Assembly (NCBI GenBank): GCA_016213555.1
Contig: JACRAC010000005.1
Span: forward strand, 1 to 32,492
DNA length: 32,492 nucleotides
Reading direction: 5' to 3'
Source: Candidatus Aenigmatarchaeota archaeon
Lineage (GTDB): Archaea; Aenigmatarchaeota; Aenigmatarchaeia; GW2011-AR5; JACRAC01
In this document: piece after piece, positions 298 to 13,973 of the stretch
Numbering within the stretch: position 1 is the stretch's first letter
How the letters are laid out: each line of letters begins with the position of its first letter
Made by a program: the position numbers and the translations under genes
The notes under the pieces: model-generated
Seen by the model: only the letters and a program-made list of their open reading frames with translations
What the model was told of the DNA's origin: nothing
The model's database searches: none

Positions 298-597
298 TTA
301 CTCCTTTTCTAAATCAGAAAGCTTTTCTTTTATAATATCAGCTATTGACTTGGCAGAATTTGTTTGATAAAGATATTTTAACTGACCTTCTATAAGAGCT
401 TCTTTTTTAATGAATTGTTTACCTACCAAATCAGATAAACATGATCTTATAGTTCTTTCAGAAAGTTTAGAAACCTTTACTATTTGCTTTATTGTCAACG
501 GCTTCTTTGAAAGCAGATTGAATACTTTTTGCTCGTTCTTTCCTATTGACAAATGTTTTATTACATCATCAATTTTACTTGATTTTTTAGCAGTCAT
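298..597 (-). CDS. Small winged-helix transcriptional regulator
   Basis: A 99-residue protein. After a short basic N-terminus comes a classic winged-helix core: NEQKVFNLLSKKPLTIKQIV (helix 1 and 2), then VSKLSERTIRSCLSDLVGKQ (recognition helix), then a wing containing KYLYQT and a charged C-terminal helix. This resembles TrmB/ArsR/MarR-like archaeal regulators; no sensor domain is present. Its promoter region faces that of the gene at 732, and a perfect 8-bp inverted repeat lies between them at 672-690. A small HTH protein next to a palindrome suggests a regulator-operator pair, but nothing shown here proves that this protein binds it. No operon partner downstream other than the partial gene at 1-258. 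Confidence 0.75.
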   Translation of the reverse strand: MTAKKSSKIDDVIKHLSIGKNEQKVFNLLSKKPLTIKQIVKVSKLSERTIRSCLSDLVGKQFIKKEALIEGQLKYLYQTNSAKSIADIIKEKLSDLEKE

Positions 598-663: not shown

Positions 664-701
664 TACATATATATGCAAAATATTTGCATAAGCTTTATAT
701 A
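664..701 (+). promoter_or_regulatory. Palindromic operator plus TATA box upstream of the gene at 732
   Basis: The arms TATGCAAA (672-679) and TTTGCATA (683-690) form a perfect inverted repeat with a 3-base spacer. It is followed directly by a TATA box, CTTTATATA (693-701). A second copy with the same arms, spacer length and following TATA box lies at 4486-4512. The arm and its upstream flank, TACATATATATGCAAA, are identical in both copies. Position over the BRE/TATA fits a repressor site. Confidence 0.7.
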
Positions 702-731: not shown

Positions 732-1220
732 ATGGCAGCACTTGCAGTAGCTTATGATTTTAAACAAATTCTTAGTGAGGCGCAGCCTAGGCAAGAAAGA
801 GAAAAACATCTAAAAGCAGTTCCAAATGTTGCTTATGTAGATAAAAGTTCTTTGAGGTTTCCTTCAAAAACTTATGAAACAGATTTAACTTCAGTATATT
901 CAGGTCCAGCTACTTGGACGTTGATACAAGAGCGAACAGGATATAACGTATCATGTAATGTAAATGGAATGGTGTTACCAATTCAATCAAGATCATTTAC
1001 TTATCAAGGAATTTTAGACAGATTGTATGGTATGGCTGGAGCAGGAAAAACTCGTGATAGAGCAATAGAGTTTGCTAGAACATATTCACCTGAAGCTGGA
1101 TTTGATAAAAATGACAGCTGGACAGGAGAGGTAAGTAATATAAGAAATGAAAGAGCAAGAAGTAGAGAGGATAGAAAATGGGCATCTAAATACGTATCTG
1201 AACACCCTCCAAAAAAATAA
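732..1220 (+). CDS. Unknown protein, 162 residues
   Basis: No family recognised. The ATG at 732 is preferred over the TTG three bases upstream because GTGAT at 724-728 gives a Shine-Dalgarno site. The protein is soluble with no signal peptide or membrane segment. It has a central segment with aromatic residues (YSGPATWTLIQERTGYNV) and an Arg/Lys-rich C-terminal third. The string GMAGAGKT at about residue 100 fits the Walker A pattern on paper, but no Walker B or other NTPase motif follows, so it is probably chance. The gene stands alone behind the palindromic promoter at 664-701, which it shares with the unrelated small gene at 4552. Confidence 0.7.
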   Translation: MAALAVAYDFKQILSEAQPRQEREKHLKAVPNVAYVDKSSLRFPSKTYETDLTSVYSGPATWTLIQERTGYNVSCNVNGMVLPIQSRSFTYQGILDRLYGMAGAGKTRDRAIEFARTYSPEAGFDKNDSWTGEVSNIRNERARSREDRKWASKYVSEHPPKK

Positions 1221-1262: not shown

Positions 1263-1414
1263 TAGCCCCAGGCAGATTCGAACTGCCGTCAGTGGGTTTC
1301 TTTTCTTCATGGAAGTACGACGTGAAATTTGTTTGCAAACTTCGTTTCATCCTTCTCGAATCTTTAGATCCGTGATCCAAAGCCCACGATCCTTGGCCGC
1401 TAGACTATGGGGCT
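1263..1414 (-). tRNA. tRNA-Gln (anticodon UUG), intron-containing
   Basis: Read on the minus strand. Acceptor arms AGCCCCA (1408-1414) and TGGGGCT (1264-1270) pair fully and the discriminator is A. The D-arm is GTCT/GGAT with loop AGCGGCCAA. The anticodon stem is GTGGG/CCCAC and the T-arm is GGCAG-TTCGAAT-CTGCC. The anticodon loop is CTTTGG + A, giving anticodon TTG (Gln). A 79-base intron interrupts it after position 37. CCA is not encoded, consistent with the cca gene at 29861. An A1-U72 pair is usual for archaeal tRNA-Gln. A T-rich run just past the 3' end (1247-1262 in reverse) can act as terminator. Glutaminylation would depend on GatDE at 9467-13049. Confidence 0.92.
1298..1376 (-). other. 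tRNA-Gln intron at the canonical 37/38 position
   Basis: The exon ends are ...CTTTGG and ACCCAC..., which rejoin to a normal 7-base anticodon loop when 79 bases are removed. Near the 5' splice site TCACGG can pair with CCATGA near the 3' site with one mismatch, which is compatible with a bulge-helix-bulge substrate for the archaeal splicing endonuclease. The 3' boundary may be off by up to three bases because the flank is a run of A. The middle contains an internal hairpin around GTTTGCAAAC. Confidence 0.8.
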
Positions 1415-4485: not shown

Positions 4486-4520
4486 TACATATATATGCAA
4501 ATTATTTGCATATCTTTAAA
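4486..4520 (+). promoter_or_regulatory. Second copy of the palindromic operator, before the gene at 4552
   Basis: The arms TATGCAAA (4494-4501) and TTTGCATA (4505-4512) are perfect, with spacer TTA. The flank TACATATATATGCAAA (4486-4501) is identical to that of the copy at 664-679. A TATA box, CTTTAAATA, starts two bases after the palindrome. Same geometry as upstream of the gene at 732. Confidence 0.7.
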
Positions 4521-4551
4521 TATACTGGTATACAAATAATAATGTGGTATA

Positions 4552-4788
4552 ATGTACAATAACGGTATGGCTGTTCTTAGCAAGCAGGGAGACACGTATT
4601 CTTTAGAAGCGGTTGACTTGAGTTTTGACTTTTCAAATAGAGGAGTTTTTTCTGATATAAGGGAAGCCCTAGGAGCATATGCAAAAGAGATGGGTAGAGG
4701 AGTTTCTCTCTCATTAGGAATTGGTATAACAGATTCAGATAGAAAAGTATATGATGGATTCAGAAACAACTTACAGCCAACTTCTTAA
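4552..4788 (+). CDS. Small unknown protein, 78 residues
   Basis: A short soluble protein beginning MYNNGMAVLSKQGDTYSLEA, with alternating polar and hydrophobic residues (beta-like) in the first half and the segment REALGAYAKEMGRGVSLSLG in the second. No family recognised. GTGGT at 4544-4548 may serve as ribosome binding site for the ATG at 4552; the ATG at 4567 is an alternative. It sits alone between taw2 and the membrane-protein cluster, directly behind the second palindromic operator, and is therefore a likely co-regulated partner of the gene at 732. Confidence 0.6.
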   Translation: MYNNGMAVLSKQGDTYSLEAVDLSFDFSNRGVFSDIREALGAYAKEMGRGVSLSLGIGITDSDRKVYDGFRNNLQPTS

Positions 4789-13049: not shown

Positions 13050-13973
13050 TTATAGTTTAGCTTCATTAAGTCTTTCATAAATTCTAGCATATCTAGATAC
13101 ATCCGCAGGTCTAGGAAAGTCTACAAAACCATCTCCAACATATTCATAATGTACAGGATCTGATTCTGAAAGCCTTCTTCTAAATCCTTGCTGCTTCAAT
13201 AATTCTATAAGTTTACTGTCATCTTGAAGAAATTTTGGAACATCAAATGCGTTTCCTGTTCCATGAGGTCCTCTTCCAGGCCTTGCAATATATCCAGCAT
13301 GTTTCCAATGGTTATCAGGATCATAGTCCTCTCCAGCAGTATTTTTGTAAGCTTCTAACTGCTGAAAACTTGATCTGAAACATTTTCTAGGAGTATCTGA
13401 ATCATAAGCTCTTTCTATTGCATCGATAAGTGTTATCTTAGGATAATCTGGGTCTAGTTTATCAAGAGTTCCTATTTCATTTGAAGTTTTTCTCAATGCA
13501 ACAGCACAAGGATACATTAATCCAGCATTAAGAGTTTCTTGCGTTACGTTTCTACCAAAGTCTCTAAAATCAACCAATAAATAATCTTGAACATCTTCTA
13601 GTTTCCAGCCAGCTCCTCTATAAGTCTTAGAACCTGTATAGCCGTCTTTTTTCAATAAATCATCAGGAACTAAAGATTCATGATAGGGATAGTTTCCAGA
13701 AGGAAATGATACCCATTTTCCAGTTTCCCATGTCCATGTAACACCATGTAGTTTGCGAAGCTGTTTCTTTTCATTTTCTGTAAGTATATGGCCAAATTTT
13801 CTAGGTACATATACATTTTCAGGCAAGCTAGATCTATAACTACTATCTACTTGAGAATGTGTTTTTTCAGGCTTTATATCTACTGCAGTTTTTGTACCTA
13901 ATCCAGTATATCCGAGTACAGCTGTAGCTGCTGCAGCTCCAAATAAAAACCATCTTGATAATGATCTATTCAC
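13050..13973 (-). CDS. Membrane-anchored M15-type (VanY/endolysin-like) metallopeptidase
   Basis: A 307-residue protein with an N-terminal membrane anchor or signal (RWFLFGAAAATAVLGYTGLG) and an extracellular C-terminal domain. That domain has the M15 zinc-peptidase motifs: GPHGTGNAFD with ligands H237 and D244, and SDPVHYEYVG with D272 as catalytic base and H275 as third ligand. The H-x6-D spacing and DxxH form match the endolysin/VanY-like branch, which cleaves peptide bridges of peptidoglycan. The GTG start at 13971-13973 is supported by AGGTG at five-base spacing. Archaea generally lack peptidoglycan, so the target may be a bacterial neighbour or another surface polymer. Activity is inferred. 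Confidence 0.75.
   Translation of the reverse strand: MNRSLSRWFLFGAAAATAVLGYTGLGTKTAVDIKPEKTHSQVDSSYRSSLPENVYVPRKFGHILTENEKKQLRKLHGVTWTWETGKWVSFPSGNYPYHESLVPDDLLKKDGYTGSKTYRGAGWKLEDVQDYLLVDFRDFGRNVTQETLNAGLMYPCAVALRKTSNEIGTLDKLDPDYPKITLIDAIERAYDSDTPRKCFRSSFQQLEAYKNTAGEDYDPDNHWKHAGYIARPGRGPHGTGNAFDVPKFLQDDSKLIELLKQQGFRRRLSESDPVHYEYVGDGFVDFPRPADVSRYARIYERLNEAKL

Follow-up and report, generated by a model that had tools for sequence, protein, structure and literature searches.

A palindromic candidate operator abutting TATA boxes and its probable TrmB-like regulator in an Aenigmatarchaeota genome

Several archaeal regulators act from palindromes or other sites placed at the core promoter. TrmB acts at the core promoter elements of malE and represses (PMC4706686), and Lrs14-type proteins bind sites that overlap core promoter elements, also with repression as the outcome (PMC12529230). 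Activation from upstream sites has been described for TrmBL1 and OxsR (PMC4158304, PMC9426492). TFB-RF1 also works from upstream, where it recruits TFB while bound to a palindrome located at a conserved distance from a weak BRE (PMC5937170). For Aenigmatarchaeota, our literature searches yielded no operator or regulon, and nothing direct on the operator considered here or on the transcription regulators of the phylum. These archaea are uncultured and their genetic manipulation is hard. A regulator whose 19-bp operator can be predicted from sequence constitutes a directly testable transcription switch.

Here, we analyzed a stretch of 32,492 nucleotides ("the window"), which is the whole of contig C54 of an archaeal MAG of 878,832 bp estimated to be 87% complete. 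We propose, with a probability of about 0.6, that a palindrome found twice in this window is the operator of the protein encoded at 298-597, and that a homodimer of this protein would cover the BRE and most likely repress a small set of genes including 732 and 4552. The switch is of a known type (single-winged-helix, TrmB-like), and its operator is new for the phylum as far as the literature found allows us to say.

Palindromic sites in the window and in the genome

Two exact copies of the palindrome TATGCAAA-N3-TTTGCATA were present in the window (Table 1), both within the identical 16-mer TACATATATATGCAAA (664-679 and 4486-4501). They are followed by CTTTATATA (693-701) and CTTTAAATA (4514-4522), respectively, each carrying a perfect TATA box (8/8), and operator 1 overlaps the expected BRE of gene 732. 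Part of the operator 1 flank, TTACATATA, is retained in the same-genus relative G001. The original prediction had located both palindromes and their common flank correctly, had announced a TATA box within three bases of each, and had rightly described the HTH gene as diverging from the first site. It had also claimed an identical geometry; the gap to TTTAWATA differs by one nucleotide between the sites (3 and 2 nt), so that near-identical is the better term.

Table 1. Features of the proposed regulatory system and their coordinates.
Feature	Position	Strand	Sequence or remark
Regulator gene, 99-aa single winged-helix TrmB/Lrs14-like protein	298..597	-	PF01978, 1sfx, AlphaFold2, orthologs with the same site
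Conserved 5' flank of operator 1	664..671	+	TACATATA
Operator 1 (putative)	672..690		TATGCAAAATATTTGCATA
TATA box of gene 732	694..701	+	TTTATATA; 3 nt past the end of operator 1
Candidate target gene 1, 162-aa protein	732..1220	+	no homolog in 30 other genomes of the order
Conserved 5' flank of operator 2	4486..4493	+	TACATATA
Operator 2 (putative)	4494..4512		TATGCAAATTATTTGCATA
TATA box of gene 4552	4515..4522	+	TTTAAATA; 2 nt past the end of operator 2
Candidate target gene 2, 78-aa protein	4552..4788	+	no homolog in 30 other genomes of the order
One-mismatch site, contig C11	C11:3405		intergenic, TATA-abutting, before a 121-aa protein gene
One-mismatch site, contig C41	C41:3336		intergenic, TATA-abutting, before an 85-aa protein gene

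The genome was scanned for further copies, and seven sites with at most two mismatches were obtained, four of them with no more than one (two exact and two one-mismatch sites). All four were intergenic, none lying in coding DNA, and each was followed after 2-5 nt by a TATA box matching at 7/8 positions or more. Chance expectation was taken from a second-order Markov model of the window scaled to 878,832 bp, which gave 0.004 exact and 0.155 one-mismatch sites, to be compared with the 2 and 2 observed (Poisson tail about 1e-5). With four such sites where about 0.16 are expected, and good matches not scattered through coding DNA, the assertion that the arrangement was unlikely by chance is borne out. 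Two-mismatch sites occurred at chance level (3 observed, 2.7 expected) and were set aside: two fall within coding genes, and the remaining one extends over the start of a sigma-70-like ORF.

Could the palindrome be something other than an operator, i.e., a chance similarity between AT-rich promoters, a mobile repeat or a hairpin terminator? Weak palindromes are indeed plentiful in AT-rich DNA, and site 2 starts 10 bp past the stop codon of a Trm5/Tyw2-like gene. However, the frequency is far over the Markov expectation, site 1 lies between diverging genes, and a genome from another family of the order has the same palindrome at its orthologous locus. A mobile repeat was ruled out, since the similarity stops at the promoter and no repeat unit was seen. 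We consider this explanation extremely improbable.

Other features were observed along the window and the genome. TATA boxes of 8/8 precede 732, 4552, 7331, 10867, 13050, 14078 and 16881, almost all of them uncharacterised genes, and the TATA boxes of housekeeping genes are weaker. The gene at 13050-13973 (minus strand) encodes a 307-aa protein with an M15 peptidase-like motif (HGTGNAFDVP ... DPVHYEY) and no Pfam match. The region 1264-1414 (minus strand) resembles a tRNA gene, possibly for tRNA-Gln(TTG), whose anticodon loop is interrupted by an intron of about 60 bases (GCCCCATAGTCTAGCGG ... CAGTTCGAATCTGCCTGGGGC); ARAGORN and Rfam detected no RNA gene in the window and both missed this one. 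The sigma-70-like ORF (L061:422-1501, on contig C60 of the source genome, G000), next to an endonuclease III-like gene, encodes a 359-aa protein with a bacterial sigma-70 region 2 (Pfam 1e-13), which in an archaeal MAG points either to contamination or to transfer of a sigma-like gene.

The regulator and its site across related genomes

The product of 298-597 is very probably the protein that binds the palindrome, judging from genomic association. PF01978 (TrmB) was the commonest Pfam match in its family, hit by 7/7 members (best E 7e-9); the window protein itself scored 24.0 bits (E 3.5e-5), just under the gathering threshold of 25.6. The family profile matched PDB 1sfx (AF2008), the closest solved structure, over 92 residues (E = 6e-16), and an AlphaFold2 model built from five sequences showed a wHTH fold with the order H-H-H-H-E-E-H and a recognition helix at residues 47-59 (mean pLDDT 73). 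Both the 1sfx match and the predicted fold indicate a single winged helix with a C-terminal helix, as in arCOG02242-type regulators (OxsR, AF2008). The protein ends after this helix, and the C-terminal sugar-binding effector domain PF11495 is absent, so that it is not a TrmB proper. Nor is it an Lrs14 by curated score, the Lrs14/Sta1 models NF040939 and NF053606 giving 26 bits against cut-offs of 90 and 80. An interface cysteine of the OxsR type was not found in helix 1 or 5; the sole cysteine, Cys53, lies in the recognition helix and is also present in one relative. The OxsR thiol switch is not evident here because the dimer-interface helices have no cysteine. By its fold, the regulator is a member of the single-winged-helix TrmB-like regulators. 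Its named homologs come from groundwater MAGs of Candidatus Aenigmatarchaeota, and no relative was found among viral contigs.

Strong members of the regulator family occurred in seven genomes of the order, the source genome included. In four relatives the orthologous HTH gene has the site next to it, with 16/16 matches in G025, 15/16 in G021, 14/16 in G001 and 13/16 in G014, where it directly precedes the TATA box of the HTH gene itself. The window and G025 share the order HTH gene, site, small gene, aTrm56 gene and Twy1-like gene, the window having extra small genes in between. Conservation in relatives, which had been named as a check, is seen at the HTH locus; the promoter at 4494 has no counterpart to compare, since a search of 30 genomes of the order gave no homolog of gene 4552. 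In the two other genomes, G006 and G016, the palindrome in the HTH promoter region is instead TTCATACGTATGAA, which is confined to this place in each genome, with no other copy at up to one mismatch, and position 55 of the recognition helix is K or R, versus S, T or D in the others. Operator and recognition helix appear, from this comparison, to change in parallel, and such a paired change is a natural specificity experiment.

The distribution of sites followed that of the gene. Among sites of at least 14/16, TATA-adjacency was found in 8 of 15 in genomes with the regulator versus 0-1 of about 26 in genomes without it (Fisher p about 1e-4 to 6e-4, for which 25 loci rather than 26 were entered). 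These roughly 26 loci in other genomes, at up to two mismatches, are coding or have no TATA box, and none is both TATA-adjacent and intergenic (one coding); we regard them as coding noise. A composite pattern of half-sites and TATA box, run on five genomes, returned only the sites already listed. In G001, at C29:12479 (L059, about 1480-1515), two back-to-back operators make up an inverted repeat about 32 bp long; a TATA box and a small gene adjoining the TBP gene follow it.

It may be argued that a different DNA-binding protein recognizes the operator and controls the HTH gene as one target among others. The genome is only 87% complete, so another regulator is conceivable. In G021, the operator serves the promoter of the gene following the HTH gene, and the promoter of the HTH gene itself has no site; in the window, the TATA box of the HTH gene is not clearly adjacent to the operator. 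Nevertheless, site and HTH gene have remained side by side in four relatives, TATA-adjacent intergenic sites were not seen where the gene is missing, and the recognition helix varies together with the operator, which makes this explanation quite improbable. A shared regulator and a small regulon, as originally suggested, are supported by the four TATA-abutting sites, by their recurrence at the HTH gene and by the change with the recognition helix.

Mode of action and target genes

In archaea, BREs lie directly before the TATA box. The gap between operator and TATA box was 2 nt in most promoters and 3-5 nt in the rest, and in most the last operator bases fall on the BRE. We infer that a homodimer of the 298-597 protein would bind the palindrome, that the 3' edge of the operator would place it over the BRE, and that the bound dimer would block TFB/TBP and repress transcription. 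The predicted regulon consists of 732, 4552, the 121-aa gene of C11 and the 85-aa gene of C41. Repression, through exclusion of TFB, is favoured because the operator overlaps the BRE, with TrmB at malE and the Lrs14-type proteins as precedents, and the perfect TATA boxes of the targets were also counted for it.

The same regulator and operator could instead serve activation, the protein recruiting TFB or TBP from upstream of the TATA box in the manner of TFB-RF1, OxsR and TrmBL1. All sites do lie upstream of it with a near-constant gap of 2-5 nt, which could mean a contact with TFB, the BRE adenines are imperfect at several target promoters, and in dual-acting TrmB-family proteins sites upstream of BRE/TATA usually activate (PMC4158304, PMC4706686, PMC9426492). 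However, the palindrome occupies the outer BRE and leaves little space for TFB, and the BRE A-A is retained upstream of both 732 and the C41 gene. Activation appears rather unlikely to us, and we give repression about twice its weight.

Since operator 1 lies in the regulator's own upstream region, autoregulation is likely. The operator or its variant abuts the HTH-directed TATA box in G014, G006 and G025, and in the window it separates the HTH gene from the neighbour that diverges from it. For the window copy autoregulation is not certain, because the best-scoring TATA box for HTH transcription is some 48 nt from the operator.

The products of 732 and 4552 had been described as unrelated small uncharacterised proteins, and this holds: they share no similarity and matched nothing in Pfam or PHROG. 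The C11 and C41 proteins likewise had no significant family match. Read-through into a pyruvate kinase gene from the C41 promoter was considered and rejected, as that gene has its own TATA box about 25 nt before its ATG. No sequence similarity was detected among target proteins, with the exception of the 3D-domain proteins that G021 and G016 encode at their HTH loci (L016:2184-2723; L018:427-1143), which adjoin the regulator gene under the operator or its variant and are likely cell-wall-active (hydrolase-like) enzymes.

Regulator and operator thus seem to persist while the genes they would control change between genomes; a conserved switch whose orphan targets turn over in this way is unusual. 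We tentatively raise the possibility, to which we give somewhat less than an even chance, of a conserved and co-evolving DPANN regulator-operator module that repeatedly recruits lineage-specific orphan genes, replaced from species to species and perhaps involved in host contact. The operator also marks as regulated small orphan genes that are otherwise invisible; being deliberately regulated, they are therefore probably real and functional.

Comparison with known systems

The system resembles the arCOG02242 group (OxsR of Haloferax volcanii; Lrs14/Sta1/AbfR of Sulfolobales) and AF2008 (1sfx), archaeal proteins with one winged-helix domain and a C-terminal helix. As in that group, there is no effector domain, sites lie at or just upstream of BRE/TATA, and autoregulation, known in some members, is expected. 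In contrast to the group, the site here is a strict 19-bp AT-rich palindrome, and lineage-specific genes take the place of stress or biofilm genes as targets. The regulator further differs from OxsR in having no cysteine at the dimer-interface helices, and from Lrs14/Sta1 in NCBIfam scores far below cut-off.

With TrmB of Pyrococcus furiosus at malE (TACT-N3-AGTA) and with TrmBL1 (TATCAC-N5-GTGATA), it has in common a probable PF01978-type DNA-binding domain and a short-spacer palindrome at BRE/TATA. Unlike these proteins, it has 99 aa without a sugar-binding domain and a different half-site, and no sugar genes are evident among its targets apart from a pyruvate kinase gene, which follows the C41 target and has a TATA box of its own. 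Compared with TFB-RF1 of P. furiosus (TCTGAA-N-TTCAGA upstream of a weak BRE), the site here abuts the TATA box and overlaps the BRE, and there is no evidence of activation; the two systems are alike in the conserved distance between palindrome and BRE/TATA and in a tiny regulon that includes the regulator's own locus.
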